From: Tissierellia bacterium
GTDB lineage: Bacteria; Bacillota; Clostridia; Tissierellales; Tepidimicrobiaceae
Length of the DNA stretch: 64,000 nt
Assembly: GCA_012839745.1 (NCBI GenBank)
Contig: DUMS01000007.1
Coordinates: 62,001-126,000, forward strand
Direction: 5' to 3'
Below, piece by piece: positions 8,678 to 54,502 of the stretch. Position 1 is the first letter of the stretch. Every line of letters begins with the position of its first letter. The notes under the pieces were generated by a model. It was not told the origin of the DNA, ran no database searches, and saw nothing but the letters and a program-made list of their open reading frames with translations. Position numbers and translations under genes: made by a program.

Positions 8678-10066
8678 TTGAAGACTATAGTAAGAGACAT
8701 CTATAAAAATCCGGATGAATTCTTTGGCAAAGAGGTAGTTATAGAAGGATGGATTAGAACATTGAGAGCTTCTAACAAGATAGGATTTATAGAAGTAAAT
8801 GACGGAACTTTCTTTTCAAATATACAGGTAGTATTCGATGAAAATCTGGAAAACTTCAAAGAGGTAAGCAAATATTCGATAAGCAGTGCCATTTATGTAA
8901 GGGGAACATTGGTTAAAACAGAAGGGGCTAAGCAGCCCTTTGAAATCCATGCAAAGGAAATAGCATTAGAGGCAGATTCTGAGAAGGATTATCCATTGCA
9001 GAAGAAAAGGCATACATTTGAATATTTAAGGACTATAGCACATCTAAGGCCAAGAAGCAATACCTTCAGTGCAGTGTTTAGAGTAAGGTCCTTAACAGCC
9101 TATGCCATACATAAGTTCTTTCAGGAGAGAAATTTCGTATATGTTCATACTCCAATAATTACAGGCAGCGATGCTGAAGGCGCTGGAGAGATGTTTAGGG
9201 TTACAACTTTGGATTTATTAAATGTACCTTTGACAGAAGATAATAAAGTTGACTATTCAAAGGACTTCTTTGGCAAGGAAACAAATCTGACAGTCAGTGG
9301 GCAACTGGAAGCCGAGGCTTATGCTCTGGCTTTTAGAAATGTATATACTTTTGGTCCAACATTTAGAGCAGAAAATTCCAACACAACCCGCCATGCTGCT
9401 GAGTTTTGGATGATTGAACCTGAAATGGCATTTGCTGACTTAAAGGACAACATGAATTTAGCTGAGGATATGATGAAATACATTATAAATTATGTAATGG
9501 AAAAGGCACCTGAAGAGATGAAGTTTTTCAATTCCTTCATAGATAAAGGCCTGATTGACAGGCTGGATAATATTGTAAATTCAAAGTTTGCATGCATTAC
9601 TTATACAGAAGCCATAGACCTTTTGAAGAAGTCAAAGGAGCAATTCCAATATCCTGTAGAATGGGGTACAGATTTGCAGACAGAACATGAAAGGTATATA
9701 TGCGAGAAGGTATTTAAGGGGCCTGTATTTGTTATAGACTATCCAAAGGATATTAAAGCCTTCTACATGAGGTTAAATGATGATGGGAAAACTGTAGCTG
9801 CCATGGATTTACTGGTTCCAGGTGTTGGTGAAATCATCGGCGGAAGCCAAAGAGAGGAAAGGCTTGATATTCTGGAAAACAGAATCTCAGAGCTGGGAAT
9901 GAATAAAGAGGATTACTGGTGGTATTTAGAGCTGAGAAAATACGGCGGAGTAAAGCATGCAGGATATGGATTAGGCTTTGAAAGGGCTATTATGTATTTA
10001 ACTGGAATGGGAAACATTAGAGATGTCATACCTTTCCCAAGAACAGTAAAATCAGCAGAATTTTAG
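8678..10066 (+). CDS. asnS: Asparaginyl-tRNA synthetase
   Basis: Class II aminoacyl-tRNA synthetase charging tRNA-Asn. The N-terminal OB-fold anticodon-binding domain covers about residues 1-105 ([14 protein letters not shown]). The catalytic domain carries motif 2 as FRAEN and motif 3 as [15 protein letters not shown] near the C-terminus. A GTG at 8669 overlaps the AAAGGAG ribosome-binding site, so the TTG at 8678, eight bases after it, is the better start and gives 462 residues. The asparagine specifier in the upstream T-box supports the asparagine rather than aspartate assignment. Confidence 0.95.
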
Positions 10067-10076
10067 CAACAAAATA

Positions 10077-10105
10077 TTGAATTGTTCATATATATTTGCT
10101 ATAAT
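10077..10105 (+). promoter_or_regulatory. Vegetative promoter of the leuS T-box transcript
   Basis: TTGAAT (10077-10082), a 17-base spacer and TATAAT (10100-10105), eleven bases after the asnS stop. Transcription would begin at the base of the leuS T-box. Confidence 0.75.
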
Positions 10106-10117
10106 ACATCATAAATT

Positions 10118-10350
10118 AGCATAAAACTGTGAAAGGAAGTAGTAAGCCTAATATTAGTTGTAGAGAGCTGTTGGATGGTGAAAAACAGTACTAATTAGGG
10201 CTGAACTCGTCCTTGAGTTGTTAAAGCGAATGAAGTAGCTTTAACCGGTTGAAGCCGTTATTTCTTGAGAGGATAGCATATGCTATCAATTAGAGTGGTA
10301 CCGCGGAAAATGCCTTTCGTCTCTATTCAGACGGAAGGTTTTATTTTTCA
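10118..10350 (+). promoter_or_regulatory. T-box riboswitch, leucine-specific, upstream of leuS
   Basis: The T-box AGAGTGGTACCGCGG lies at 10292-10306, followed by a terminator with CCTTTCGTCT and AGACGGAAGG arms (10313-10339) and a T-rich tail. The specifier is CTC (10206-10208), one base before TCCTTGAG, a leucine codon that agrees with the downstream synthetase. Its specifier-loop spacing is the same as in the asnS leader. Uncharged tRNA-Leu should stabilise the antiterminator. Confidence 0.95.
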
Positions 10351-10379
10351 TAGCATTAAAAAAGCAAGGAGGAGAAGAC

Positions 10380-12791
10380 ATGAAAGAGTATAATCCAAAT
10401 GAAATAGAAAGAAAATGGCAAAGAATCTGGGAAGAGAAAAGGATATTTGAAACCAGCGATGACAAATCAAAGAAGAAATTCTATGCATTAATTGAGTTTC
10501 CATATCCATCAGGTCAAGGATTGCATGTAGGGCACCCAAGACCATATACAGCATTGGATATAGTTGCTAGAAAGAGAAGGCTTGAAGGGTATAATGTACT
10601 CTTTCCAATAGGGTGGGATGCATTTGGATTGCCAACAGAGAACTATGCCATAAAGCACAAGGTTCATCCCAAAAAGGTAACGGAGCAAAATGTTGAAAGG
10701 TTTAAAAATCAGCTGAAGTCTATAGGGTTTTCATTTAACTGGTCAAGGGAAATAAATACAACAGACCCTGACTACTATAAATGGACCCAGTGGATATTTC
10801 TGAAATTATATGAAAAAGGGCTGGCATACAAGCACGAGATGCCAATAAACTGGTGTACATCCTGTAAGGTAGGATTGGCCAATGAAGAGGTAGTAGGAGG
10901 AAGATGTGAACGCTGTGGAGGAGAAGTTGTTAGAAAGGTAAAGAATCAATGGATGCTTAGAATTACTGCATATGCAGATAGATTAATTGATGATCTGGAA
11001 ACTGTTGACTATGCTGAAAAGATTAAAGCTCAACAGATAAACTGGATAGGGCGTTCTGAAGGAGCAGAAGTTAAGTTTAAAATAGCAGGTAAGGAGGATA
11101 GCCTTACAGTATTTACAACAAGACCTGATACTCTTTATGGTGCTACATATATGGTAATAGCACCTGAACATCCACTTATTGATAAATATAAGGATGAAAT
11201 ATTGAATTTAGATGAATTAAACAAATACAGGGAATATGTAAGCAAAAAATCTGATTTTGAAAGAACAGAGCTTTCAAAGGAAAAGACTGGAGTTGAGATA
11301 AAGGGAATTAAGGCTGTAAATCCGGTAAACCAAAAAGAAATCCCAATCTGGATTTCAGACTATGTATTGATGAGCTATGGAACCGGAGCCATAATGGCTG
11401 TACCTGCACATGACACAAGGGACTGGGAATTTGCAAAGAAGTTCAATCTTCCAATTGTAGAGGTTGTTAAAGGAGGAAATGTTGAAGAGGCAGCATACAC
11501 TGATACGGAAAATGGCATATTGGTAAACTCCGAGCTAATAAATGGATTAAAGGTAGAAGAAGCTAAGAAGAAAATAATCAATTGGCTGGAGGAAAGGGGC
11601 TTAGGAAGGAAAACTGTCAACTACAAGCTTCGCGACTGGGTATTCTCACGTCAGAGATATTGGGGAGAACCTATACCAATGATATATTGCGAAGAATGTG
11701 GATGGGTACCAGTTCCTGAAGATGAACTGCCTGTAAAGCTTCCGGAAGTTGAAAACTATGAACCTACAGATACAGGAGAATCTCCATTGGCCAATATAAC
11801 TGATTGGGTGGAGGTACCCTGTCCAAAATGCGGAAAAAAAGCAAGGAGAGAAACTGATACAATGCCTCAATGGGCAGGTTCTTCCTGGTATTATTTAAGA
11901 TATATTGACCCACATAATGACAAAGAAATTGCAAGCAAAGAAGAGCTTCAGTACTGGTCTCCTGTTGACTGGTACAATGGTGGAATGGAGCATACGACTC
12001 TGCACCTTCTGTATTCAAGATTCTGGCACAAGTTTTTATATGACCTTGGAATTGTACCAACCAGCGAGCCATACATGAAGAGAACATCCCATGGAATGAT
12101 ATTGGGAGAAAACAACGAGAAGATGTCTAAATCCAGAGGTAATGTGGTAAATCCTGATGATATAGTAAAGGAATACGGAGCAGATACTTTAAGAACCTAT
12201 GAAATGTTCATAGGGGATTTTGAAAAGAGCGTACCATGGTCTGAAAACGGTGTAAAAGGCTGCAGAAGATTCCTGGAAAGAGTATGGAAGCTACAGGATA
12301 TTGTAGTTGATGGCGATAATTACACCAAAGAACTAGAGACTAAAATTCATAAGACAATAAAGAAGGTTTCGGAAGACTACGAAACCCTTAAGTATAATAC
12401 AGCTATTGCAGCGCTTATGACCTTATTAAATGATTTCAACGACCATGGAAAGATAACAAAGGCTGATTTTAAAACATTCCTGATATTGCTAAATCCTGTA
12501 GCACCCCATATAACAGAGGAGCTGTGGGAGATTGCAGGATTTAAAGGAATGTTAAACCAAAGTACATGGCCAGAGTATAATGAGGAAAAAATTAAAGAAG
12601 AGCTCATACAACTGCCAGTACAGGTAAATGGAAAGGTAAGAGGTACTATTTCCATAAGCCCTGAAGATGATCAGGATAAGGTTAGGGAAATGGTAAGGCA
12701 AAACGAAAATATAAAGAAATATATAGATGGAAAGACCATAATAAAAGAAATATTTGTAAAAGGAAAGATATATAATATAGTTGTAAAGTAG
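10380..12791 (+). CDS. leuS: Leucyl-tRNA synthetase
   Basis: Class I synthetase charging tRNA-Leu, 803 residues, the bacterial length. The HIGH motif is HVGH (residues 49-52) and the KMSKS motif is residues 581-585. A zinc-ribbon-like CxxC pair (CTSC and CERC) lies near residues 160-180, the CP1 editing insertion covers about residues 220-420 with the conserved TTRPDTL, and the C-terminal anticodon-binding and ubiquitin-like extension ends the protein. An AAGGAGGAG ribosome-binding site precedes the ATG. Regulated by the leucine T-box upstream and closed by a strong terminator. Confidence 0.97.
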
Positions 12792-41104: not shown

Positions 41105-41421
41105 ATTGCTCACCTCCTATAATTATTTTTACATTTAACTTAGTTTTTATTTAGTCTAATTTCTTTAATTTATGTATAAAGAAGGAATATTAATATCATA
41201 AATAATCTTATCATAAGTGATAAGTTTCTCTTAAAATTTTGTTACAAATAAGAAGGGTTAGCGGTCTAAAGTTTCAAAAAAAAGTATATTTACAAGCAGC
41301 TGTAATAATCCTAATTCCATGAGAGGAGTATTCTTGCTATAACATAGTACAAATAGTATAATTATAATAGAATTAATCCTGATAAAGAAGAAGTGCAAAT
41401 AATCTAAAACGGGTGAAATAT
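41105..41421. promoter_or_regulatory. Divergent intergenic region with the pil operon promoter
   Basis: TTGCTA (41334-41339), a 17-base spacer and TATAAT (41357-41362) form a vegetative promoter 60 bases before pilB. I looked for a c-di-GMP-I or -II riboswitch, which often controls clostridial pili, and saw no matching conserved core. The rest is very AT-rich; the - strand gene's ribosome-binding site is at 41111-41117. No other structure stands out. Confidence 0.6.
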
Positions 41422-43101
41422 ATGATGACTACAAATTTGAAGCTTGGCGAGATATTGCTAAAATATGGAAAGATTACAGAGGAGCAGCTTTATGATGCTC
41501 TGGAAAAGCAAAAGAAATCAAACAGGAAATTAGGCGAAATATTAGTTGATGAAGGTTATGTAACTGAATCTGATATAGTAGAAGTTCTGGAATTTCAGCT
41601 TGGTTTTCCTCATGTGGATTTAGATAAATACGCAATAAATCCAAATGTAATATCCTTAGTGCCTGAAAACATTGCAAGACGATATGATTTAATCCCCATA
41701 GATAAAAAGGATAATTACCTGTTGGTGGCCATGGCAGATCCATTGAACATATTTGCTATTGACGATTTGAAGTTATACGCAAACTGCGACATACAGCCTG
41801 TTATATCCTCCAGGGACAGCATTAGAAAAAGCATTGATAAATTCTATAGAAAAGAAACCGCTGAGAAAGTATTAAAGGAATTTGAAGATAACTATGGTGC
41901 AGCAAGCTTGGAGGAAGAAAATGAGGAACAGCTGGAAATAAGCAATGCTCCTATTGTAAGGCTCATTAACTCCACAATTCAACAGGCTATAGACATGAAA
42001 GCAAGCGATATTCATATTGAGCCATATACTGAGGATATACGAATTAGATTTAGGATTGACGGAGATTTGCAGGAGATAATGAGATTGTCTAAGAATATAC
42101 TTTCTCCACTGGTTACCAGAATTAAAATAATAGGTAAGATGGATATTGCTGAAAAGAGAATTCCGCAGGATGGAAGGGTAGAATTCAACATAAACAACAA
42201 GATAATAGATATTAGAATATCGACTATTCCTACAGTTCATGGAGAAAAAATAGTATTGAGGCTGCTTGATAGGGAAAACTTCTTAATGGCAAAGGAAGAG
42301 CTTGGCTTTACTCAAAGGAATATGGACCTTTTTGAAAAATTGCTGAAACAGCCCTATGGAATGCTGTTAATAGCCGGACCTACAGGAAGCGGGAAGACGA
42401 CTACCCTATATGCAATACTTAAAGAGCTGAACACAATAGAAAAAAATATAATTACCATAGAAGACCCCGTAGAATACAAGATGGAAGGCATAAATCAGGT
42501 ACAGATAAATCCTAAGGCAGGATTGACCTTTGCCAGCGGGTTAAGGTCCATACTGAGGCAGGACCCTGATATAATAATGGTAGGAGAAATAAGGGACACG
42601 GAAACGGCACAGATAGCTGTCAGGGCAGCAATTACAGGCCACCTGGTACTATCTACCCTCCATACCAACGATAGCCCTTCCTCTATTATCAGGATGATTG
42701 ATATGGGAGTAGAACCTTACCTGGTGTCGTCAGCGGTAATAGGAGTTATTTCACAGAGGCTGGTAAAAAGCCTGTGTGATAACTGCAAAACTCCCTATGA
42801 AGCAAGCTATTCAGAAAAACTTTTACTTGGGAAAAATCCTGATGAAAGTCTGACTTTATATAAACCAAAGGGATGCAACAGGTGTAATAACGGATATACA
42901 GGAAGAAGGGCAATTCATGAGATAATGATTGTAGATGAAAACATGAGAAGGATTATTAATGAAGGAAGGAATGTAGATGAGATAAGAATAAGTGCAATTG
43001 AATCGGGTATGATTACCCTTATGGAAAATTCTGTTGATTTGGTATTACAAGGCATAACTTCCATTGATGAGATTTTAAAAGCTAACTTTACACTGGGATA
43101 G
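41422..43101 (+). CDS. pilB: Type IV pilus extension ATPase PilB with MshEN domain
   Basis: Hexameric ATPase that drives pilus assembly, 559 residues. The N-terminus (residues about 8-59) is an MshEN domain: two copies of the LGExL-x3-G-x6-L-x3-L-x2-Q pattern (LGEILLKYG...LEKQ and LGEILVDEG...LEFQ), the known c-di-GMP binding module. Walker A is GPTGSGKTT (319-327), followed by the Asp and His boxes including HLVLSTLHTND. The zinc-binding CDNCKTP...GCNRCNNGYTGR is present, which distinguishes extension from retraction ATPases. ATG at 41422 preferred over the GTG at 41413, which overlaps GGGTG. First gene of the pilus operon. Confidence 0.93.
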   Translation: MMTTNLKLGEILLKYGKITEEQLYDALEKQKKSNRKLGEILVDEGYVTESDIVEVLEFQLGFPHVDLDKYAINPNVISLVPENIARRYDLIPIDKKDNYLLVAMADPLNIFAIDDLKLYANCDIQPVISSRDSIRKSIDKFYRKETAEKVLKEFEDNYGAASLEEENEEQLEISNAPIVRLINSTIQQAIDMKASDIHIEPYTEDIRIRFRIDGDLQEIMRLSKNILSPLVTRIKIIGKMDIAEKRIPQDGRVEFNINNKIIDIRISTIPTVHGEKIVLRLLDRENFLMAKEELGFTQRNMDLFEKLLKQPYGMLLIAGPTGSGKTTTLYAILKELNTIEKNIITIEDPVEYKMEGINQVQINPKAGLTFASGLRSILRQDPDIIMVGEIRDTETAQIAVRAAITGHLVLSTLHTNDSPSSIIRMIDMGVEPYLVSSAVIGVISQRLVKSLCDNCKTPYEASYSEKLLLGKNPDESLTLYKPKGCNRCNNGYTGRRAIHEIMIVDENMRRIINEGRNVDEIRISAIESGMITLMENSVDLVLQGITSIDEILKANFTLG

Positions 43102-43111
43102 GGGGATATAA

Positions 43112-44164
43112 ATGAATATTATAGAATTGGTCCAGTATGCTGCTGAAAAAAACGCATCTGATCTTCACATTACTGTAGGCGTACCTCCTATGTTGAGGAT
43201 TAATGGAGAGCTTATAAGATACAATGACAAGGTTTTGTATTCAGCTGATACCGAAGAACTGGTAAAGCAGGTGCTAAATGAAAAGCAGATTAAGGAACTT
43301 AATGAAAGAGGCCAGATTGATACTTCTTATTCAAAGCCTGGGATAGGCCGCTTCAGGGTAAATGTATATAAGCAGAGAGGAAGCTATGGTATGTCCATAA
43401 GGGTTATACCTTTGGAGGTACCAACTATAGACCAGCTGGGCTTGCCCCCAATTATAAAGGAAATATCCAGACTAAAAAGAGGTCTTATACTGGTTACAGG
43501 ACCCACAGGCAGTGGAAAGTCTACTACATTAGCTTCCATGGTAAATCTTATAAATGAGGAAAAGAAATGCCATATTATTACCCTTGAAGATCCCATAGAG
43601 TACCTTCACAGGCACAATAAGAGTATTGTAAATCAGAGGGAAATAGGCACGGATACTGATAGCTTTTCAGATGCACTTAGGGCCGCACTAAGGCAGGACC
43701 CGGATGTTATACTTGTGGGAGAGATGAGGGATCTGGATACCATTAGCATAGCCTTGACTGCAGCAGAAACAGGCCATCTGGTATTATCAACCCTTCACAC
43801 CGTAGGAACAGCTAAAACAATTGACAGAATAATAGATGTGTTTCCACCTTATCAGCAGCAGCAGATTAGAATTCAATTTTCATCTGTAATACAAGCTATA
43901 ATATCTCAACAGCTTATACCTAAAGCTAATGGAGAAGGAAGGGTAGCAGCAGTGGAAATAATGATTGCCACCCCTGCCATAAGAAATCTCATTAGAGAAG
44001 AAAAAACACATCAGATAGAGAACTCAATACAGACTGGCGGAAAGTTTGGAATGAAAACCATGGACAATTCTCTTCTGGAGCTATACAATAAGGGGATTAT
44101 TACCAAGGATACTCTGTTAAATCAGTGTATTAATCTTGAATATATAAGAAGGTTTGTCATATAG
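43112..44164 (+). CDS. pilT: Type IV pilus retraction ATPase PilT
   Basis: ATPase of 350 residues that depolymerises the pilus and powers twitching. Walker A is GPTGSGKST (130-138); HLVLSTLHTVGTAKT near residue 227 is the His box, and there is no zinc tetracysteine. The N-terminal PAS-like domain starts with ASDLHITVGVPPMLRINGEL. The C-terminus lacks an obvious AIRNLIRE variant: AIRNLIREEKTHQIENSIQ is present, the PilT hallmark. Ten bases after pilB. Confidence 0.95.
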   Translation: MNIIELVQYAAEKNASDLHITVGVPPMLRINGELIRYNDKVLYSADTEELVKQVLNEKQIKELNERGQIDTSYSKPGIGRFRVNVYKQRGSYGMSIRVIPLEVPTIDQLGLPPIIKEISRLKRGLILVTGPTGSGKSTTLASMVNLINEEKKCHIITLEDPIEYLHRHNKSIVNQREIGTDTDSFSDALRAALRQDPDVILVGEMRDLDTISIALTAAETGHLVLSTLHTVGTAKTIDRIIDVFPPYQQQQIRIQFSSVIQAIISQQLIPKANGEGRVAAVEIMIATPAIRNLIREEKTHQIENSIQTGGKFGMKTMDNSLLELYNKGIITKDTLLNQCINLEYIRRFVI

Positions 44165-44174
44165 GAGTGATTAG

Positions 44175-45383
44175 ATGACACTATACAAATATAAGGCTAT
44201 TACTGATAAGGGTGAGATTCTGGAAGGGTATAAGGAAGCCCAGTCAGAATATGAAATAGTAAGGATGCTCAAGAACAACAACTGTCACCCTATTGCCATA
44301 AAAGAGGATGTAAATGTAGAATCGAGGAAATTTATTATTTCCAAGAAGGTTACAAAAAAGGACATATCAGTTTTTTGCAGGCAGTTCTATACTATGCTTA
44401 ATGCAGGAGTTGGAATCGTAAACTGCTTGGATATATTGGAGAAACAGGTGGAGAACAAAAAGCTTAAAAGTGCAATAGCAGTGCTATATGAAGACGTCCA
44501 GAAGGGAATGACCCTGTCAGAAGGAATGAAAAAGCAAAAAAATGTATTCCCTGCATTACTAATCAACATGGTTGAGGCAGGAGAAGTAAGTGGCAGCCTG
44601 GATGTTCTAATGGAGAGAATGGCAATCCACTATGAAAAGGAATATAGAATTGAAAACAAGGTTAAAAATGCATTAGTCTACCCGGTTCTGCTGAGTTTCG
44701 TATCTATAGCAGTGGTTATGTTCTTGATTGTTGTAGTTATGCCTACATTTGTCAGCATGTTTGAAACTAGCGGATCTGTGCTTCCTGCACCTACCAGAAT
44801 AATGTTGGCAATAAGCAACTTTATCAGTACTTTTTGGTATTTGCTTATATTGGGATTGATATTTACAATAGCAGGTATTATGTATTTTGCAAAAACACCA
44901 AAGGGAATGCATTTTTTCGATACGCTAAAATTAAGCCTTCCAGGTATCAGAAAAGTAAATATAAAGATTATAACCTCAAGATTTACAAGGACCCTTTCCA
45001 CTTTATTATCAAGCGGAATACCTCTACTGCAGTCAATGGATGTTGTAAACAGGGTTGTGGGAAATGTTATTGTATCTGAAAAGCTTGATATTGCAAAAGA
45101 AAAAATAAGAAGGGGAGTCCCCGTATCCAAGGCTATAAAGGATACCAACATATTTTCTCCTATGGTGGATTCCATGATAAAAATAGGGGAGGAATCAGGT
45201 GCACTGGATGATATACTCTATAAAACTGCCGATTACTACGACGAGGAAGTAGAAAACTCAATGCAAAGGATGACCACCCTTCTGGAGCCTATAATGATAG
45301 TATTCATGGCTTTGATAGTAGGATTTATAGTAATATCCATGACACTGCCTATGTTTGATATGATTAATACCATTGAAATATAG
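44175..45383 (+). CDS. pilC: Type IV pilus inner-membrane platform protein PilC
   Basis: GspF/PilC family protein of 402 residues with two repeated cytoplasmic helical domains and three membrane segments (about residues 170-195, 220-245 and 375-395). It couples PilB and PilT to the growing pilus. FCRQFYTMLNAGVGIVNCLDIL near residue 68 and FTRTLSTLLSSGIPLLQSMDVV near residue 272 are the two repeat starts. Ten bases after pilT. Confidence 0.93.
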   Translation: MTLYKYKAITDKGEILEGYKEAQSEYEIVRMLKNNNCHPIAIKEDVNVESRKFIISKKVTKKDISVFCRQFYTMLNAGVGIVNCLDILEKQVENKKLKSAIAVLYEDVQKGMTLSEGMKKQKNVFPALLINMVEAGEVSGSLDVLMERMAIHYEKEYRIENKVKNALVYPVLLSFVSIAVVMFLIVVVMPTFVSMFETSGSVLPAPTRIMLAISNFISTFWYLLILGLIFTIAGIMYFAKTPKGMHFFDTLKLSLPGIRKVNIKIITSRFTRTLSTLLSSGIPLLQSMDVVNRVVGNVIVSEKLDIAKEKIRRGVPVSKAIKDTNIFSPMVDSMIKIGEESGALDDILYKTADYYDEEVENSMQRMTTLLEPIMIVFMALIVGFIVISMTLPMFDMINTIEI

Positions 45384-45433
45384 TAAAAAATTTGAGGGAA
45401 AATAAAAATGCAGTATACAACAGGACAAGCATT

Positions 45434-45442
45434 TGGTATAAT
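45434..45442 (+). promoter_or_regulatory. Extended -10 promoter upstream of the major pilin gene
   Basis: TGGTATAAT is a full extended -10 element. The -35 region (TATACA, 17 bases upstream) is weak. An extra promoter would let the pilin be made in excess of the machinery proteins. Confidence 0.55.
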
Positions 45443-45484
45443 ATATTATATAGAATTTATATTTAAAGTGAGGGGGAAGAAAGA

Positions 45485-45970
45485 ATGTTTAAATTTATTT
45501 CAAAAAAACTAAAGAAAAACAACAAAGGCTTTACACTGGCAGAGCTGATAGCTGTACTTGCAATACTAGGCATAATAGGAGCAATAGCTGTACCAAGGTT
45601 TACAGCAACTAGGAAAAATGCAGCTTTAAAGGCTCATGAAGCAAATAAAAGGACTTTAGAGAATGCCGCAAAGTTGTATTATACTGAAACAGGAAATGCA
45701 AATATTGAAACAGAAGATACAATTATTTGGAAAGGAGAAAAAGGTGATCCAAATGATCCAAATGATTCAAATAATCCAAAATATGCATGGACTGTTTATT
45801 TTGATGAATGGCCACAGATACCAGATGGATTAACAGAAAAAGACCTTGGTATAGGAGAAGATGAAAATAAAATAGTTACAAATAAAAACTACACCTATAT
45901 AGTAACAATAGAACTAGATGGTGAAGTTAAAGTTACAATAGAAGAAAAAAACCAACAACAAAATAAATAA
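45485..45970 (+). CDS. pilA: Type IV prepilin (major pilin candidate, PilA-like)
   Basis: A 161-residue prepilin. The class III-type leader of 15 residues is rich in lysine and ends in NKG, with cleavage before FTLAE; E5 of the mature protein is present and the following 20 residues are the hydrophobic helix. The rest is a small acidic globular domain with an insert KGDPNDPNDSNNPK encoded by tandem 9-base units. Its own extended -10 promoter and its place between pilC and the prepilin peptidase make it the likely major subunit. No cysteines, so no disulfide loop. Confidence 0.9.
   Translation: MFKFISKKLKKNNKGFTLAELIAVLAILGIIGAIAVPRFTATRKNAALKAHEANKRTLENAAKLYYTETGNANIETEDTIIWKGEKGDPNDPNDSNNPKYAWTVYFDEWPQIPDGLTEKDLGIGEDENKIVTNKNYTYIVTIELDGEVKVTIEEKNQQQNK
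45746..45781 (+). repeat. Tandem 9-bp repeat inside the pilin gene
   Basis: Four units: GATCCAAAT twice, then GATTCAAAT and AATCCAAAA, encoding DPN-DPN-DSN-NPK. In-frame repeat, so copy-number changes would alter the pilin surface loop without breaking the gene. Confidence 0.75.
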
Positions 45971-46066
45971 GGTAAACAGTGTTAATTATAAACCTATAGA
46001 GCTAATATTCAATATAAATAATATTTTCTCATTTTAATTCTTAATCATTACATAAGGAGGCTACAT

Positions 46067-46828
46067 ATGGCACTATTCATATTCCTATTTGGCTGTATCA
46101 TCGGTTCCTTTCTAAATGTGTGCATATATAGAATACCACAAAACAAAAGCATTGCATTTCCAGGGTCCCACTGCCCAAAGTGTAGCACTCCTTTAAAATG
46201 GTTTGATTTGTTACCTGTATTAAGTTTTGTATTCTTAAAGGGAAGGTGCAGGTATTGCGGGGAGAGAATCTCCCCAAGATACCCTGCTGTTGAATTATTA
46301 AATGGAATTATTTATTTGTTTTTGTATTACAATTTTGGGTTAGGTATTGATTTCTTCTATTATTCTCAAATAGTAAGCGTTCTTATAGTCATATTTTTTA
46401 TAGATATTGACCATCAGATAATACCGAATAGCTTAGTTTTGGTTGTATTTTTATGGGATATTGTATTTAAGATTGTAAGCTATTTTATATTAAATGAACC
46501 ATTGAGCATCCTAAATTACTTAGGTGGACTGGCTGTAGGAGCTGTGTTCTTTATATTGATATTCATCCTTTCCAAGGGAGGTATGGGAGGAGGAGACATT
46601 AAGCTTATAGGAGCATTTGGATTTATACTAGGCATGCCACGAATACTTTTGAACATGTTCCTGTCCTTTATGCTGGGCGGCATTATTTCAATATTTTTAT
46701 TGATATTTAAAATAAAGAAAAGAAAGGATCCAATTGCATTTGGTCCATTTTTAATTATTGGGTTTTTGATTTCATTGTTTTGGGGATATGAAATTATTTA
46801 TTGGTACCTATATAAAGTTTTGGGGTGA
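46067..46828 (+). CDS. pilD: Prepilin peptidase PilD
   Basis: Membrane aspartyl protease of 253 residues that cuts the leader from prepilins and N-methylates the new end. The N-terminal cytoplasmic loop has two CxxC pairs (CPKC near residue 35 and CRYC near residue 62), and the catalytic aspartates are in DIDHQIIPN near residue 122 and the GGGDIKLIGA motif near residue 182. About seven membrane segments. AAGGAGGC ribosome-binding site before the ATG. Confidence 0.95.
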   Translation: MALFIFLFGCIIGSFLNVCIYRIPQNKSIAFPGSHCPKCSTPLKWFDLLPVLSFVFLKGRCRYCGERISPRYPAVELLNGIIYLFLYYNFGLGIDFFYYSQIVSVLIVIFFIDIDHQIIPNSLVLVVFLWDIVFKIVSYFILNEPLSILNYLGGLAVGAVFFILIFILSKGGMGGGDIKLIGAFGFILGMPRILLNMFLSFMLGGIISIFLLIFKIKKRKDPIAFGPFLIIGFLISLFWGYEIIYWYLYKVLG

Positions 46829-47077: not shown

Positions 47078-48148
47078 TTGACATTGGGCTTAAGCTTTAA
47101 AGGCAGGCAGAAGGTTATAGCCTTGGATATTGGTGCTTATAGCATAAAGGTAGTAGAAGGCAAGGAGAATAAAAAAGGAATCGTTATAAATAAATTCTTC
47201 ACCATCAAAACACCATTAGGTGTACTTAAGGATGGCAGCATTTTGGACAAGGATTTATTGCATTATGTCATAAGCGAAGAGTTTAAGAAAAGGAAAATTA
47301 GAACAAAAGATGTATATATCACAATAAACAGCTCAAAAATTCTCACTCGTGAGATAACAATTCCAAAGGTTGATGAAGATGATATAGAAAGCTTTTTAAG
47401 GTTTCAGATTGAGGATTATATACCAGTAAGCATGGATAATTATGTAATCCAGTATAAAATACTGGAAACGTTTTATGAGGACAATTTGGAAAAGATAAAC
47501 TTACTGATTATTGCCATACCAAAGGACATGGTGGAGGATTACTTAGACCTTTTAAAAAATCTAAACCTTAATCCAGTGGTTATGGACTACCAGCCAAACT
47601 CCATAGCAAAGTTAATAAAGTATAATAGTTTAATAAACAATGCTTATCCCACAGAGGATATAACCTTTGCCAATATAGATATAGGATATGACAGCACTAA
47701 AATATCCATCATTAAAAATGGAAACATACTGGTTTCAAGGATAATTGAAATTGGAGGAAGCTATATAGACCAAAGCATATTGAATTTTAATGAGTTTACC
47801 GTTGATGAAATAGAGGATAGGAAACGAAAAATAGAGAATATCAACAGAATAGATGAGGATGATGAAAGTCATGGCATTTCAAACATTATCAAGACTTCCA
47901 TAATACTCCTTACCGAAAAAATAGAATTGGTATTCAGATACTATTTGTCCAGAAGGCCTGACAATTCCATAAATCTGATTCTAATTACCGGAGGAGTTTC
48001 AAATATAAAGGGATTGGACAACATGCTTTCAAATATGTTCAACATGCCTGCCATATCCATAGAAACCCTCGACAATGTTGATTTTAAAGGTAAATTTTCC
48101 GATTATGCAAACTCAATAGGTACAATCATTAGAACATCAGGAGTGTAG
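47078..48148 (+). CDS. pilM: Type IV pilus assembly protein PilM
   Basis: Actin-like cytoplasmic protein of 356 residues that binds the N-terminus of PilN and links it to the ATPases. ALDIGAYSIKVVEG near residue 16 is the phosphate-1 motif; ANIDIGYDSTKISII near residue 206 and LILITGGVSNIKGLD near residue 305 are the later ATP-binding motifs. Two TTG codons, 47078 and 47084, both lie near AAGGAG at slightly non-ideal spacing, so the start is uncertain by two residues. First gene of pilMNO. Confidence 0.9.
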   Translation: MTLGLSFKGRQKVIALDIGAYSIKVVEGKENKKGIVINKFFTIKTPLGVLKDGSILDKDLLHYVISEEFKKRKIRTKDVYITINSSKILTREITIPKVDEDDIESFLRFQIEDYIPVSMDNYVIQYKILETFYEDNLEKINLLIIAIPKDMVEDYLDLLKNLNLNPVVMDYQPNSIAKLIKYNSLINNAYPTEDITFANIDIGYDSTKISIIKNGNILVSRIIEIGGSYIDQSILNFNEFTVDEIEDRKRKIENINRIDEDDESHGISNIIKTSIILLTEKIELVFRYYLSRRPDNSINLILITGGVSNIKGLDNMLSNMFNMPAISIETLDNVDFKGKFSDYANSIGTIIRTSGV

Positions 48149-48150
48149 CT

Positions 48151-48738
48151 ATGAAAGACTTAAATTTTTTTGATTCATATGTTGTAAAGAAAAAAATTAA
48201 TATAGATAAGCAGGTTATTTTTTATATCATTGGATTTTCTTTGCTTATTATTGTAATGATATATTGTGCTTTTAATCAGTTTAGAATTACCAAACTGTCA
48301 AAGGAGATTTCTACTTTGAACAAAGTAATAGAGGATGAAAGGGTAATTAGCAAGATTGATGAAATAAATAAAAAGAACAGCGAATTGGATTCCCTAAAGG
48401 AAAGCATAAAGCAAACAGAAGTCCAGGACAGATTTATCAGGGAAAATGCTACAATTGACGCCAGCATACTTGAAATGATTACTTCAAGCATGCAAAAGGA
48501 TGTATTTCTTACTTCTTTAAACCTTTACACTGATAAGGTCAGTGTAGTGGGGAAGGCAAAGGACCAGATTTTAATAGCTCAGTTTGTTGAGAATCTTGAA
48601 TCCTTTGAACCAATTAAGGGAGTATTTGTTTCATCAATATCTAAAGAGGAACAATATTACAGCTTTATATTGGATTTGAGCTTAAAGGAAGTGATGACAG
48701 ATGGAGAAGGTACAGCTATTGAAGAGCCCGAAAATTAA
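48151..48738 (+). CDS. pilN: Type IV pilus assembly protein PilN
   Basis: A 195-residue bitopic membrane protein: short cytoplasmic N-terminus with DLNFFDSY (PilM-binding position), one membrane helix (about residues 23-45), a coiled coil (about 48-90) and a ferredoxin-like beta-alpha domain with MTSSMQKDVFLTSLNLY. It begins two bases after pilM and overlaps pilO by 38 bases, so the three are co-translated. Confidence 0.85.
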   Translation: MKDLNFFDSYVVKKKINIDKQVIFYIIGFSLLIIVMIYCAFNQFRITKLSKEISTLNKVIEDERVISKIDEINKKNSELDSLKESIKQTEVQDRFIRENATIDASILEMITSSMQKDVFLTSLNLYTDKVSVVGKAKDQILIAQFVENLESFEPIKGVFVSSISKEEQYYSFILDLSLKEVMTDGEGTAIEEPEN

Positions 48739-50110
48739 GGGTAGATTGACAAAAAGGGAAAAGAATTTGCTTATAATTCTGCTGCTTGTAATAGTTATTT
48801 ATGCAGTCTATACATTCATTATCAATCCCCAACTCAATAAACTACAGAGCTTAAATGAACAGAAATCAGCATTGGAGACCAGAATATCCCAAATAGATTC
48901 AATTATTGGCAGTGAAAAGGATATCGAAGAAAGATTAAGCAAACTGCGAGACAAAAAGGAAAACCTTGAAAGCAGATTTTTTGCTTCATTAAGCCAATCT
49001 CAACTTATAAGCCTTCTAGAGGAAATGACAAGGGATGATGGATTTGTAGCTGAGGATATGGTTTTCTATGACAAGCAGGAAGAGCAAATAGGGGATATGT
49101 CCTTTGTGAGAATGGATGTTGACATACCTTATAGGGGTACTTATGAGGGGGTATTAAGGGTATTAAAGGGCATCTCATCCTACCCAAAAAAGATCATTGT
49201 AACCAGCTTGATTATGGATAGCACAGGTGATGAACTGGCAGGCACTTTATCCTTAAGCTTTTACAGCATGGACGGCAGAGATGATTCTAAAGGTACTATA
49301 AGTATTCCAGAGGCTGTTGATGAATTTAAGGAAGACCCATTCCTGCCTTTTGATGAGTATGAAGCAGATATGGATGATATAATTGAAAAGGAGATAAAAG
49401 AAGATATTACAGAGCCAATTGGGGAGTTTGAAGAAGGAATAACAGATAATTATTATAGGGAGATTCTGGAGGATTTTGAAGAAGGAAATTTTGATTTCAT
49501 ACCTTCCAATAGATATGTACAGGGGAATGTATTTAGATCAGCAACAAGCAAGTCAAACAGAAATTCTGTCAGGCTAGAATACAGCATTTTGGCTATTGAG
49601 GATGAAAACAGGGCATATATAGACTTGTCAGACAGGAAGACTTCTATTAAATATCCTCCATCTTCCATTGGATTGTGGATATATTCCTATGGATATTCGC
49701 CATCCACAATAGGATTAAAGTTAATAGGTCAGAATAATGAGGAGTATTATCTCCCCATTTCTGAAGGAATATCATGGATAGGCTGGAATTATGTTGAAAC
49801 AGTTCCACCTTTGGATGTTTCTCTGTATCCTTTGAAAATAGACAAGCTGTATCTGGAGCTTACAAATTACAGGGATGATTTTGGAGTGCTGCTATTTGAT
49901 AAGCTTGAAGCCAATTATCCTGTAGATAGCAACAATTCAGGCCAGTCTTTCCTGTTCCATATGGTTAAACAAGGGGAAACACTGGACGATATAAGCATGA
50001 AGTACTATGGTACTAAAGAAAAGAAAGGCTTAATTAAGCAGTACAATGAGATTACGTCAGATAACATTCAACCGGGAAGAATTCTGGTTATTCCAAGGCA
50101 GGAGGAGTAG
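48701..50110 (+). CDS. pilO: PilO-type protein extended by jelly-roll-like and LysM domains
   Basis: A 469-residue protein, more than twice the usual PilO length. Residues 22-41 are a membrane helix, about 43-92 a coiled coil, and about 95-190 the PilO ferredoxin-like domain. An acidic linker follows, then about 250-410 a beta domain with FVPSNRYVQGNVF-like start (here FIPSNRYVQGNVFRS), IGLWIYSYGYSPSTIGLKLI and WIGWNYVETVPP, a pattern seen in galactose-binding jelly rolls of clostridial wall proteins. Residues about 419-469 are a LysM domain (VKQGETLDDISMKYYG). The outer part would sit in the wall and bind glycan. ATG at 48701 follows AAGGAAGTG inside pilN; a TTG at 48719 is possible. Confidence 0.82.
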   Translation: MEKVQLLKSPKIKGRLTKREKNLLIILLLVIVIYAVYTFIINPQLNKLQSLNEQKSALETRISQIDSIIGSEKDIEERLSKLRDKKENLESRFFASLSQSQLISLLEEMTRDDGFVAEDMVFYDKQEEQIGDMSFVRMDVDIPYRGTYEGVLRVLKGISSYPKKIIVTSLIMDSTGDELAGTLSLSFYSMDGRDDSKGTISIPEAVDEFKEDPFLPFDEYEADMDDIIEKEIKEDITEPIGEFEEGITDNYYREILEDFEEGNFDFIPSNRYVQGNVFRSATSKSNRNSVRLEYSILAIEDENRAYIDLSDRKTSIKYPPSSIGLWIYSYGYSPSTIGLKLIGQNNEEYYLPISEGISWIGWNYVETVPPLDVSLYPLKIDKLYLELTNYRDDFGVLLFDKLEANYPVDSNNSGQSFLFHMVKQGETLDDISMKYYGTKEKKGLIKQYNEITSDNIQPGRILVIPRQEE

Positions 50111-50113
50111 AGC

Positions 50114-52012
50114 ATGAAATATTTAAGGTATCTGGTAATTGTATTGGCATTTCTTTTGATTTTGCCCCAAGTGGTTTTGGGAAGCGCTATTGAAAGAGAA
50201 TATGAACAAGCCAGGGAAATTGGAGCGATAATTGGCTACAACCATGGATTGGTATATGACCATATACCAACTCTAAATGAAGTTATTGCCATCTATGAAA
50301 TGTATTTCAGCAATAAGGATTCGGTACACAGGAATTATTTTATTGAAGGTTACTACGAAGGGTTTGAAAAGACCTATAAAAAGAGTGACAGCGCACCTAT
50401 TGCAGTTGAACCTGTTGAATACGCAGATGTGCTGGGATTTACCTTAGGAGAAATATACGGAATCAGGGATTGTGAAGATGGTAAAAAATACAACCCAAGG
50501 TCTGCACTCCCTTCAGATAATACTATAATAGTAAATTATAAATTGGGAAATTTATCCTATGAAGACAGAATATCTTTTCTTAAAACCTTTAAGGAAAGCT
50601 TTGAAAAGGGATATAGAGAAGGGTATATAAGGGTAAATTTCAACTCTTTTAAGATATCCTATGATGGTGGACTAGCCGATGGAGAATACTTTGGAAGTCT
50701 TCTTGGAGAGATGAATGGCATAAAGGATTTTCTTAATGGATTAAACAATAATTATAAAAGAAATATGCCATCAGACAAAAAAATAGAGGCCGACTACTCC
50801 CTGGATGATGTTGATAAAAACTATAGGGAAGGATTCATTTCAGGTTTTAAGGAAGCCTATGAAGAAAGCTACAACGAATCATACTACAACGCAAAAACTG
50901 AAGACAATAAAAAACCATATGAAAATGGATATGCGAACGGTAAGGAATCAGGATTAGAACAGGGGCAGTTCTTAGCAACAGAAGATTTCAGCAAAAATAT
51001 GGAGAATGACTGGAGAAGGCATTATCCTTCAACTTCTGAGATCATTAGGGATTACAATTTGATTTTGCAGAATACAGCTTACAGAAACAGCTTTATAAGC
51101 GGATTTATTGAGGGGTTATACCAGGGCTATAATGATGAATTTGAAAGGCTATATAGTCAATTTGTTGCCAATAAGTCTGTAATTGAAACAATTCCTTTAT
51201 CAGGAGGGGAGATAAAATCAGCTGACGGTGGCTTTACACTAAAGGTGGATAAAGGAACCTATTACAATCCTGTAACAGTAAAGCTTGAGGCTCAGATAGA
51301 TACCCCTTTCAATGGATTAATAAAAGCTTCTGAAATCTATAAAGTAAGCATTATAAATAAATCTGGGGAATTAGACAATGAGAAGCATATTGAGTTAGTA
51401 TTTGAGTACTATGGAGGTAACAATGGAGGTATATACAAGAAAATAGAGGATAAGTGGATTTACATACCTTCTATAATTGAAGATGGATACATCAAGGCTT
51501 TTGTAAAACCTGATTCCATTAAGGAAAATGGAAGCACCTATGGAGTATTTGTAGATAAGAATTATGAAGTATTACTTGATGTAAGAAGCCATTGGGCTAA
51601 AGATGAAATTATAGCTTATCAAAGGAGGGGCATTGTATCAGGATATTCTGACAGAACATTCAGACCAGATAAAGAGATTACTTGGGGAGAATTTTTATTA
51701 ATATTAAATAGAGTATACAAATGGATTGATTCCAGTAATCCATCTATTAAGGATGTGATGCAATACGCACTGGATAAGGGATATATAGAAAACACCTATT
51801 CTAATATTATAAATGCTCCTATAACCTACAGGGAAGTTGAGAGCGTAATGAGGAAAATATTCAATTCAGACAGTTTTCAATGGTATAATGTTTCAGCTAA
51901 AATGCTTTATGAAAAGCAGTACAAATGCAAGAGCTACTACAGCAAGGATAACAATATGACAAGGGCTGAAGCTATATATATGCTCTATATCATAAATGAA
52001 TGGAGGTATTAA
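50114..52012 (+). CDS. Secreted SLH-domain protein with four novel Tyr/Gly-rich repeats
   Basis: A 632-residue secreted protein. Residues 1-25 are a signal peptide. Residues about 34-348 hold four copies of a roughly 66-residue unit: G-x3-G-x4-G, then MPSxxxI and Y-x-L, then YRxxFIxGFxEAYxxGY. Residues about 360-480 form a beta domain (GGEIKSADGGFTLKVDKGTYYNP). One clear S-layer homology domain starts at DVRSHWAKDEI (about 490-540), followed by a weaker second one ending in MTRAEAIYMLYIINEWRY. SLH domains bind pyruvylated wall polymer. The gene starts three bases after pilO and ends into the first minor pilin, so it belongs to the pilus operon; it may anchor or guide the pilus at the S-layer. 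I do not recognise the repeat family. Confidence 0.85.
   Translation: MKYLRYLVIVLAFLLILPQVVLGSAIEREYEQAREIGAIIGYNHGLVYDHIPTLNEVIAIYEMYFSNKDSVHRNYFIEGYYEGFEKTYKKSDSAPIAVEPVEYADVLGFTLGEIYGIRDCEDGKKYNPRSALPSDNTIIVNYKLGNLSYEDRISFLKTFKESFEKGYREGYIRVNFNSFKISYDGGLADGEYFGSLLGEMNGIKDFLNGLNNNYKRNMPSDKKIEADYSLDDVDKNYREGFISGFKEAYEESYNESYYNAKTEDNKKPYENGYANGKESGLEQGQFLATEDFSKNMENDWRRHYPSTSEIIRDYNLILQNTAYRNSFISGFIEGLYQGYNDEFERLYSQFVANKSVIETIPLSGGEIKSADGGFTLKVDKGTYYNPVTVKLEAQIDTPFNGLIKASEIYKVSIINKSGELDNEKHIELVFEYYGGNNGGIYKKIEDKWIYIPSIIEDGYIKAFVKPDSIKENGSTYGVFVDKNYEVLLDVRSHWAKDEIIAYQRRGIVSGYSDRTFRPDKEITWGEFLLILNRVYKWIDSSNPSIKDVMQYALDKGYIENTYSNIINAPITYREVESVMRKIFNSDSFQWYNVSAKMLYEKQYKCKSYYSKDNNMTRAEAIYMLYIINEWRY
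50213..51157 (+). repeat. Four tandem copies of a ~66-residue protein repeat
   Basis: Within the SLH protein, residues about 34-88, 104-172, 187-256 and 271-348 align as: hydrophobic G-x3-G segment, a polar insert ending in PS/PT, a short I-x3-Y-x-L, then R-x2-F-h-x-G/T-F-x-E-x-h-x-x-G/S-Y. Copy 1 lacks about nine residues of the insert. DNA identity between copies is low, so the duplication is old. Confidence 0.75.
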
Positions 52013-52023
52013 TTCTAGAATGT

Positions 52024-52467
52024 GTGGATATTAAAGGCCTTACATTTATAGAAGTGATACTTGTAATATGTATAATTTCTTTTATATTGATGATTGCCAT
52101 TCTGAACAGCAGTATAGCATTGGATTTTAAGGAAAAAAGCGAACTGAGGGAATTCAAGAAGGATATTGAATATGCAAGGAACAGGGCAATAGTAGAATCA
52201 AGGCTATATACTGTAGTTATTAACCCAAGCAAGAATTCTTACACTGTCATTAATTATAACAACCTGGGCAAAAACACTGTAAAGGAGAAAAAATTTGCAT
52301 ATGGCATTAAATTAGTAAGCACGAATTTTCCGCAAAATGAGGTTACTTTTAATTATTCTGGCGTACCATTAACAGCTGGAACCATAAAATTGAAAAACAG
52401 GAAAGGGAAGTACATTGAGATAACCATTACTCCTGTAACAGGAAGGGTAAATGTTAAGATTGATTAG
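52024..52467 (+). CDS. Minor pseudopilin, GspH/PilE-like
   Basis: A prepilin-like protein with leader MDIKG and mature start LTFIEVILVICIISF carrying E5. The C-terminal 110 residues are beta-rich with conserved ARNRAIVESRLYTVVIN, like GspH/FimT. The start is uncertain: GGAGGT at 52002-52007 excludes the ATG at 52000, leaving GTG 52024 at an unusually long spacing; a rare ATT (52012) would fit better. It overlaps or abuts the end of the SLH gene. One of four minor pilins expected to form the pilus tip. Confidence 0.75.
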   Translation: MDIKGLTFIEVILVICIISFILMIAILNSSIALDFKEKSELREFKKDIEYARNRAIVESRLYTVVINPSKNSYTVINYNNLGKNTVKEKKFAYGIKLVSTNFPQNEVTFNYSGVPLTAGTIKLKNRKGKYIEITITPVTGRVNVKID

Positions 52468-52485
52468 AAAACCATGGGTGGTATT

Positions 52486-52926
52486 ATGCTTGGTAGAAAT
52501 GGATTCCTGTTTGTTGAAATTATAATGGGACTATTTCTTATAGGCATAATAGCTGTTACATGCCTGCCTTTAATAAGCACTTCAATAGACAATATGAGAT
52601 TGGCCAGAATAAAGGCTGAGATGATTTTCCTTGCTGAATCAGCAATGGAAAGGATTTTGAATTATGATCCAAAACATGAAAATAACGATTATATATTTGA
52701 TATATCTTTATGTGAGCTGATAAGGGTATTAGCAACAAATGAAAATACTGTTGTAGATTTGCCTTTAAATGATGAATCTTGCGATTACAGGCTTAGAATC
52801 TGCAAATGCAGCCTCAATGATAAGCTATGGGAAATACATTTAGAATTATCATCTGTTAAGGAAGGAGGGAAAATTGAAGATATCATTTTGCGCTCCATTA
52901 TTCCATCTAAGGATTATGAGGAATAG
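52486..52926 (+). CDS. Minor pseudopilin, GspI/PilV-like
   Basis: A 146-residue prepilin-like protein from the ATG at 52486 (preceded by GGGTGGT). Leader MLGRNG, then FLFVEIIMGLFLIGI with E5 and a further hydrophobic run. The rest is a small domain with four cysteines (SLCEL, ESCDYR, RICKCS), unusual among the pilins here and possibly disulfide-bonded outside the cell. Position after the GspH-like gene fits a GspI/PilV role. Confidence 0.75.
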   Translation: MLGRNGFLFVEIIMGLFLIGIIAVTCLPLISTSIDNMRLARIKAEMIFLAESAMERILNYDPKHENNDYIFDISLCELIRVLATNENTVVDLPLNDESCDYRLRICKCSLNDKLWEIHLELSSVKEGGKIEDIILRSIIPSKDYEE

Positions 52927-53467
52927 AGGATTTATACTTATGGAATTAATACTGTATATTGCAATAGGGTCTATTATAGTACTGGCAATGTTTTCAATGA
53001 TGAACTTTACAATTAGGGTGTATAAAAGAGGGCAAAATGAGGATGAGATATTATTACATGGCAGACATGCCATAGAATATATAAAAAAGGAGATAAAAAG
53101 TGCAGACAAGATATTTTCATCAAAAAAAATACCGGATTTGGATGAAAAATATGAAGATAATATAGGTTTTGTTATATTCAGGTTTGACCCTGATGACCCA
53201 AGGGGATACAAATATAATTATGTTACTTTTTATAGAGAGGATAATAAGTTAGTCAGGATAGCAGCCAACAGGACAAATGAAACATTACCCAGGGCCAGCT
53301 CTTTTGGTGGTTTTAACACAGTGGCAGAATATGTGGCATCAATTCGAGATACATATATTGATTTTGAAACTAAGACTGTATATTTAAATTTTATTTTATG
53401 CGATGATTTAGCCAGAGAGTATGAGTTTCAATCTATAATAGGTGCAAGATGCCCAGTGGAATATTAA
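52916..53467 (+). CDS. Minor pseudopilin, GspJ/PilW-like
   Basis: A 183-residue prepilin-like protein from the ATG at 52916, which overlaps the previous gene by eleven bases. Leader MRNRG, mature start FILMELILYIAIGSIIV with E5. GRHAIEYIKKEIKSADKI near residue 48 is the alpha-helical segment typical of PilW/GspJ. Translational coupling with the preceding minor pilin suggests a fixed ratio in a tip complex. Confidence 0.78.
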   Translation: MRNRGFILMELILYIAIGSIIVLAMFSMMNFTIRVYKRGQNEDEILLHGRHAIEYIKKEIKSADKIFSSKKIPDLDEKYEDNIGFVIFRFDPDDPRGYKYNYVTFYREDNKLVRIAANRTNETLPRASSFGGFNTVAEYVASIRDTYIDFETKTVYLNFILCDDLAREYEFQSIIGARCPVEY

Positions 53468-53485: not shown

Positions 53486-54502
53486 GTGAAAAAAAGTGAT
53501 GGCTTTATTACTATTATGGTATTGGCTATAATGTCTATCATAATGGTTTCTTCTCTATATTTGATGCATATGTATACCTTGGAATTTATGATAGTAACCT
53601 CTACTGTAAATAGCATACAATCCTACTATTTTTCCGAAGGAAAAGTTTATACCATATTGAATAAAAATGAGTATTTAAACAGTATTATGCCTAGTATTAA
53701 ACAGTTTGTAAAGGACATATATATCAAAATAATAAAAGGTATCAATATATTTCTTGATGTAGAGGACCTTTTTGAAGGCGATACGAATAATGTAGTTTCA
53801 GCAAGTATATATCATGACTATGATGGAAGAATAATACTGGAGGTAAAAATAAAAAGCACTTTCAAAAATATTACCAGAGAGGTAATATCCAAGATTACTG
53901 TAGTAAATGATCTTTTTGAATTAGGAAATCCACTTGTATCTGACGAGTTATTAAGCGATGAGAATCGAAATATGTTTAACGATTATATGAGTTTTCTTAA
54001 GAGCAATGTGGAAATACAAGAACTTGATAGTGGCATATATGGAACTGATTTGAAAGATTATGAGAAAATAAGGCTAATAAAGGATTCCAATGCTTATAGT
54101 ATTGAATGCTATAGGAATGAAATAGAACACCCGGTTAGAATAGAGAATTTTACAACTGATAAGGTATTTCTGATTATTAGGAAAAACATTTTAACACCTG
54201 AAGTATTAATTGTAGATTTAAATCCTTCAGGAAATTATAAATTGGAAGGCATAATATATATTGAAGGTGATTTGGTCATATGTAACGATTTTGAATTAAA
54301 TGGGATATTAATTGTAAATGGCAGCATAAATATAATTCCATCAGCTAATATGAATGTTAATGGAGTAGTGTTGTATAAAGGGGAAGAAAACATTGAAAAT
54401 GAAAGGTTGCATTTGCAGTATGATTTTTCTAAAATAAGAAAATATGGAATATATCTGCCTAAATTTATAGATTTAAAGATTAGAAACATAAAGAGTAATT
54501 AA
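53486..54502 (+). CDS. Large minor pseudopilin, PilX/GspK-like, without Glu5
   Basis: A 338-residue protein with leader MKKSDG and mature start FITIMVLAIMSIIMV, where position 5 is Met rather than Glu. Lack of Glu5 and larger size are the marks of GspK/PilX proteins that cap the pilus tip. The C-terminal part has beta-helix-like repeats (GNYKLEGIIYIEGDLVICNDFELNGILIVNG-like pattern, near residues 250-300), as in polymer-forming or cell-wall-facing domains. GTG start after GGAGG. Last gene of the pilus cluster. Confidence 0.75.
   Translation: MKKSDGFITIMVLAIMSIIMVSSLYLMHMYTLEFMIVTSTVNSIQSYYFSEGKVYTILNKNEYLNSIMPSIKQFVKDIYIKIIKGINIFLDVEDLFEGDTNNVVSASIYHDYDGRIILEVKIKSTFKNITREVISKITVVNDLFELGNPLVSDELLSDENRNMFNDYMSFLKSNVEIQELDSGIYGTDLKDYEKIRLIKDSNAYSIECYRNEIEHPVRIENFTTDKVFLIIRKNILTPEVLIVDLNPSGNYKLEGIIYIEGDLVICNDFELNGILIVNGSINIIPSANMNVNGVVLYKGEENIENERLHLQYDFSKIRKYGIYLPKFIDLKIRNIKSN

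Follow-up and report, generated by a model that had tools for sequence, protein, structure and literature searches.

An SLH-domain protein with a helical repeat encoded in the type IV pilus operon of Tissierella-type monoderm bacteria

Background

TsaP, a LysM protein of diderm type IV pili that is partnered with the secretin PilQ, is a wall-binding accessory that fixes the site of pilus exit to the envelope, according to Siewering 2014 as relayed in PMC7545093 and PMC13319060. As presented there, TsaP binds peptidoglycan through LysM, and its secretin partner resides in the outer membrane. The archaellum motor, a machine related to type IV pilins, has an operon-encoded S-layer anchor, ArlF/ArlG, which is needed there for torque (PMC13319060). 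For monoderms, the review of Pelicic 2019 (PMC6916266) offers, as speculation, the idea of PilO as the machine's anchor in the wall. A fusion of PilO to LysM is found beside the archaellum in 3 of 244 genomes, in Litorilinea (Chloroflexota; PMC13319060). Sap of Bacillus anthracis (3pyw) ends in a trimer of SLH domains whose probable ligand is the pyruvylated wall polymer.

The protein described here, P0001, resembles each of these systems in part. Like TsaP and ArlF/ArlG, it may be an accessory that ties a pilus-type machine to the envelope. In contrast to TsaP as portrayed in those sources, it would read its ligand by SLH domains, has no secretin partner and has an unrelated fold. FlaF/ArlF is an archaeal beta-sandwich protein, whereas P0001 combines a helical repeat with ZU5-like and SLH domains, and no rotation is involved. 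The PilO that adjoins P0001 has the same architecture as the Litorilinea fusion, although no SLH/repeat partner is mentioned in PMC13319060. The C-terminal SLH trimer is shared with Sap, but P0001 is not a lattice-type S-layer protein; it is dedicated to the pil operon and carries a new helical repeat.

An SLH/repeat gene within the pil operon

The gene is found in a window of 64,000 nucleotides, which is the whole stretch of DNA analyzed, from a Tissierellia genome of 2.17 Mb in 89 contigs. Its order of genes is pilB-pilT-pilC-pilA-pilD-pilM-pilN-pilO, the SLH/repeat gene, three minor pilin genes and a gene for a PilX-like protein, followed by aroK and efp. The relevant features are as follows.

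41413-46828, + strand: pilB, pilT, pilC, pilA and pilD (Pfam for pilB, pilT and pilA; order and sequence for pilC and pilD)
47078-48148, + strand: pilM (PF11104, E=2.1e-40)
48151-48738, + strand: pilN (PF05137, E=9.4e-9)
48701-50110, + strand: pilO with a C-terminal extension and LysM (residues 420-465, at 49958-50095; Pfam LysM, E=7.5e-9)
50100-50107, + strand: Shine-Dalgarno sequence AGGAGGAG of the SLH/repeat gene (direct reading of the DNA)
50114-52012, + strand: SLH/helical-repeat gene encoding P0001 (632 amino acids), predicted envelope component of the pil operon (open reading frame list, translation and orthologs)
52000-53467, + strand: three minor pilins, namely a GspH-like protein at 52000-52467 and others at 52474-52926 and 52874-53467 (open reading frame list, Pfam)
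53486-54502, + strand: PilX-like pilus protein (position and N-terminal hydrophobic segment; no Pfam match)

The open reading frame, with an ATG start, has exactly the extent originally predicted for an SLH protein within a pilus operon, and it lies between pilO and the minor pilin genes, as had been noted. Only three bases separate the pilO stop codon from its ATG, and the Shine-Dalgarno sequence is located six bases ahead of the ATG. A simple scan of the stretch from pilO to the first minor pilin detected no terminator, so a terminator that splits the gene from the operon was rejected, and promoter-like sites in this stretch do not exceed expectation.

The secretin domain PF00263 is not found above cut-off in any of 61 genomes. 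We therefore regard the machine as monoderm, and descent of P0001 from a secretin that it replaced was rejected on the same result. LysM is absent from P0001 according to Pfam and is present in the adjoining PilO.

At 10 loci of relatives (L041, L042, L043, L046, L050, L051, L053, L058, L060 and L061), an extra cassette that the window does not share occurs between pilD and pilM. It comprises one or two large proteins (416-570 amino acids) and pilin-like proteins, and may be a second set of tip or adhesin proteins.

Domain architecture of P0001

Behind a putative export signal, P0001 has four helical units related to one another, then a beta domain of ZU5-like fold, and it ends in an SLH trimer.

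50114-50185, + strand: putative Sec signal peptide (residues 1-24, MKYLRYLVIVLAFLLILPQVVLGS; sequence inspection alone)
50198-50398, + strand: helical unit 1 (residues 29-95), the most diverged of the four (unit-profile searches, iterated unit model)
50405-50641, + strand: helical unit 2 (residues 98-176; same methods)
50654-50899, + strand: helical unit 3 (residues 181-262; same methods)
50912-51157, + strand: helical unit 4 (residues 267-348; same methods)
51173-51559, + strand: beta domain with ZU5-like fold (residues 354-482; AlphaFold2 model, Foldseek)
51569-52009, + strand: SLH trimer (residues 486-632), with SLH1 strong and SLH2 and SLH3 degenerate (Pfam, alignment, Foldseek)

An AlphaFold2 model of the monomer (mean pLDDT 85, pTM 0.53) predicts long helices through the units, followed by the beta domain, which spans residues 356-481 in the model, and the SLH region. 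With its SLH modules and putative Sec signal (by inspection), P0001 has the features of an SLH-anchored surface protein. Because of this export signal and the SLH domains, we infer that it sits outside the wall.

The helical repeat unit

To evaluate the repeats, 27 sequences were aligned, each unit position was excised, and one profile was built per position and run on P0001. The profiles of units 2, 3 and 4 detect one another at 31-72 bits, and the unit-1 profile detects units 2-4 at 31-46 bits. Unit 1 itself is weakly detected by the profiles of units 2-4 (8.5-14.4 bits). The highest score from 1000 shuffles of the repeat region was 12.8 bits, and these unit-against-unit scores rule out a chance origin, so the four-copy repeat that was originally predicted is real. 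Its dimensions were misjudged, however: units of ~66 residues had been proposed, whereas the period is 82-86 residues (~70 for unit 1), with consensus KSYEEGYEDGEELGKLLGEIEGAKDYYKGKSNNWKRALPSDSEIIKEYNLNKESEEYREGFLSGFKEGFEEGYNEAYRKANL. With an iterated unit model of 82 positions, orthologs have two to five units each, and P0001 shows a partial first unit followed by three full ones.

Each unit begins with a helix that has glycine at every fourth residue, continues through a D-Y-Y-x-G-K-x-N-N-W-x-R-x-L-P-S linker and a short I-x3-Y-x-L segment, and ends in a helix with an aromatic residue at every fourth position. The four-residue periodicity is pronounced both for glycine (lag-4 z=45) and for aromatic residues (lag-4 z=22). 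The glycine pattern is thus G-x3-G-x3-G with strict spacing, and not G-x3-G-x4-G as first read. The MPS motif assigned to all units occurs in one of them; the four read IPT, LPS, MPS and YPS. The repeat region modeled alone gives a pTM of 0.69. The continuity of helices between adjacent units is an unreliable feature, on which the whole-protein and repeat-only models disagree.

No family in sequence searches of Pfam, NCBIfam and the PDB is matched by the repeat unit, and comparison of the repeat-only model with PDB and viral folds yielded no match below E 0.8, which bears out the suggestion that the repeat is undescribed. Membership in two families was rejected on curated cut-offs: P0001 scores 21 of the 192 bits needed for FliH (with weak NCBIfam matches at E 1.6e-4 to 9e-4) and 10.1 of the 27.5 bits needed for Yae1_N (PF09811). 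The best Yae1_N E value is 5e-5 among orthologs and 2.7e-8 at L092. These weak matches arise because FliH, with its GX3 repeats (PMC2674601), and Yae1_N likewise place glycine at every fourth residue of a helix. Both differ in being cytosolic and in lacking the W-x-R-x-x-P-S linker and the second, aromatic helix.

Within its own genome, the repeat is restricted to P0001. The bare unit also occurs in families f69 and f49, in proteins of ~250-314 amino acids that have a Cu_amine_oxidN1 domain and no pil neighbors. Occurrence away from pil genes, which had been named as a finding that would count against a pilus role, thus applies in part, to the bare unit, and not to the whole protein. The repeat is therefore a movable module of wall proteins, whereas the full architecture of P0001 is specific to pili. 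In other families of the phylum, units located away from pil genes and C-terminal to Cu_amine_oxidN1 are found at L092 843-1784, L093 1-624, L094 255-1013 and L095 4407-5153.

Open-access papers, searched in full text for type IV pili together with either SLH or Tissierella, yielded no description of a pilus-dedicated SLH protein with this repeat, and an open-access survey and reviews on type IV pili do not mention SLH or the S-layer.

The beta domain and the SLH trimer

Foldseek relates the beta domain to UNC5b (3g5b, probability 1.00) and to the ZU5 domain of ZO1 (2kxs, probability 0.97), with modest E values of 0.026-0.44. The domain has no Pfam ZU5 match in P0001 or its orthologs, no PDB sequence match and no sequence family.

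The only Pfam domain in P0001 is SLH, with a single module above cut-off (PF00395, residues 489-527, E=3e-12), and PF00395 is matched in 27 of 27 orthologs. The SLH domains of the original prediction are accordingly evident as a trimer by fold, because the modeled C terminus matches the three-SLH Sap structure 3pyw (Foldseek probability 1.00, E 0.006), and as one module by sequence family. R617 and E619 in the TRAE motif of SLH3 are invariant across the 27 orthologs. SLH1 reads ITWGE, with Trp in place of the usual Arg or Lys. The CsaB family (PF04230), an enzyme that makes the ligand of SLH domains, is present in this genome (E=4e-53).

Distribution and gene context

Of 249 genomes of the order, 52 encode a protein of this family, with two to five units; Tissierella praeacuta is among them. 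One further genome, G004, also has the gene, split over contigs. Across 398 genomes sampled from the whole phylum, no member of another order has the full protein.

Neighborhoods were inspected at 29 ortholog loci, 27 loci of named records (in partly overlapping genomes) and five more. Pil context is found at an estimated ~46 of ~47 distinct loci, and the gene is nearly always directly 3' of pilO, an order that is kept across ~16 families. To the question of whether the gene is always beside pil genes, the answer is that nearly every ortholog examined is in a pil operon. Because of this synteny, the gene can be assigned to the pilus system on genomic grounds. At L057 and L059, three genes intervene between pilO and the SLH/repeat gene, and at L056 (the same locus as L126) the flank on one side is too short to judge context. 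The sole locus outside a pilus operon is L134, where only a PilX-like neighbor is present.

L134 encodes a one-unit version of 408 amino acids (2192-3418) beside the PilX-like protein and a 2005-amino-acid protein with RCC1-like repeats. At L137 (about 10001-12042) and L136 (507-2384), from Tissierella sp. P1 and the UBA7994 MAG, the open reading frame is broken into two or three frames, by sequencing error or decay.

Some relatives retain the pil operon without the SLH/repeat gene: G001 and G018 (genus g2), G008 (g9), G627, G637, G615 and G031. Because the operon persists in these relatives, the pilus itself apparently does not depend on the protein. All but G008 have no SLH domain genome-wide; G008 has SLH, though only four matches. 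In SLH-free genomes (L083 and L138-L142), pilO is followed by the first minor pilin gene, with the SLH/repeat gene cleanly missing. Of the SLH-free genomes just listed, G001, G018 and G031 (genera g2 and g25) were checked for the CsaB family, and it is absent from all three.

Among 46 pilus-bearing genomes of families f1, f5 and f13, 38 have both the gene and SLH, seven have neither, one (G008) has SLH without the gene, and none has the gene without SLH. The link to an S-layer background that had been proposed is therefore visible as a tie between gene and SLH (Fisher p=1.5e-7, with kinship ignored). On a tree of PilM, the SLH state changes four times, with two to four concordant contrasts and no discordant one (sign test p 0.125-0.5), so that the ~3-4 independent losses fall short of significance once relatedness is corrected. 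Co-loss of the gene with the SLH system is thus a clean link of few events, and it is suggestive and not proof because the tree offers only four independent contrasts. Moreover, any SLH protein would be expected to go once its ligand is gone, and therefore co-loss by itself does not prove a role in pilus passage.

In other lineages, which form a 16-row clade of the PilM tree, most members combine pili with SLH proteins yet have no SLH/repeat gene. Some lineages without the gene encode a VWA-domain protein of 950-1280 amino acids in that part of the operon, a PilY1-like position (L078 12043-15276, L080 11162-14065, L081 1929-5774 and L087 11195-14062). PilO in these VWA-type operons has a different C-terminal domain, with R-P-R-V/F near its end.

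PilO and its LysM tail

PilO in the window comprises PilO proper, an acidic linker, an extra C-terminal domain and LysM, and this architecture tracks the SLH/repeat gene across the order. The LysM tail is present in all scanned carriers of the gene except G034 (E 0.36), and is absent at 13 non-carrier loci, including L140 and L141 of g25. Four non-carriers (G001, G008, G627 and G637) retain it. In G018, LysM is mostly deleted (L142 460-560) and only its last residues are left, a remnant that fits a weaker requirement for wall binding once the SLH system was lost.

Possible functions

The P0001 family is very probably a dedicated component of the type IV pilus, because its operon position is kept, its translational spacing is tight, the repeat has a sole copy in the genome, and the gene is co-distributed both with SLH and with the LysM tail of PilO. 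An ordinary S-layer protein that is in the operon by chance would explain the SLH domains, in a genome that is rich in SLH proteins (25 SLH matches). This we consider very improbable, and synteny strongly disfavors it: the order of genes would not be expected to hold across so many families, and SLH-rich genomes that have no pilus genes (many of family f4) also have no SLH/repeat gene. A surface adhesin or signaling protein that shares the operon, and works with the pilus in adhesion or aggregation from outside the machine, is a less remote but still unlikely alternative. SLH proteins most often serve for surface display (PMC6030368), ZU5-like and helical domains are known in surface proteins, and pil operons that lack the gene exist. 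However, columns of G, F, Y and W are invariant among 27 orthologs, a high conservation for a display protein and unlike that of variable adhesins; L134 is the only non-operon location; and the co-distribution with PilO-LysM points to the machine.

The original prediction envisaged a collar or pore that lets the pilus through the S-layer; several copies of the protein would then join as a ring by way of their helical repeats. The operon position and the tie to SLH background would suit such a ring, as would the stripes of glycine and aromatic residues on long predicted helices, which are compatible with tight packing, possibly between subunits. Yet fold searches match no ring or channel, and the modeled monomer is made up of long helices. 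A number of units that varies from two to five would alter the geometry of a ring, and wall proteins that have no pilus genes near them contain the repeats too. We therefore hold a collar or pore to be improbable. We are similarly doubtful of a stronger form, in which helical arms of several copies make an S-layer gate around the pilus, SLH-anchored and coupled to PilO-LysM, as a monoderm counterpart of the secretin.

We consider it an even call whether P0001 is an anchor to the wall or S-layer or a guide at the exit site. The SLH trimer would dock on pyruvylated secondary cell-wall polymer, a presumed ligand whose enzyme family is present. The helical arm and the ZU5-like domain might then act at the pilus exit as mechanical anchor and guide. 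The wall would be gripped at two depths, with PilO-LysM on peptidoglycan and P0001 on the wall polymer or S-layer, although direct contact between P0001 and PilO is itself rather doubtful. P0001 would thus substitute in kind, and not by descent, for the secretin and LysM partner of diderms. Anchoring and guiding at the exit site would be its simplest job, one that matters where there is an S-layer and that a cell can do without elsewhere. Two observations count against this reading: G008 keeps some SLH proteins without the gene, and SLH1 carries Trp (ITWGE).

Conclusions

Taken as a whole, our preferred reading, a dedicated type IV pilus accessory of Tissierella-type monoderms that works on the outside of the envelope and anchors or guides the exit site, has in our estimate about equal chances of being right or wrong. 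The locus supplies concrete and testable parts: PilO is extended by a LysM tail, and the dedicated SLH protein beside it carries a helical repeat that is so far undescribed. Relatives that are missing the SLH protein, and in some cases also the LysM tail, together with the SLH system provide natural contrasts. These parts bear on how the type IV pili of monoderms pass through a thick wall and S-layer and keep hold of them.
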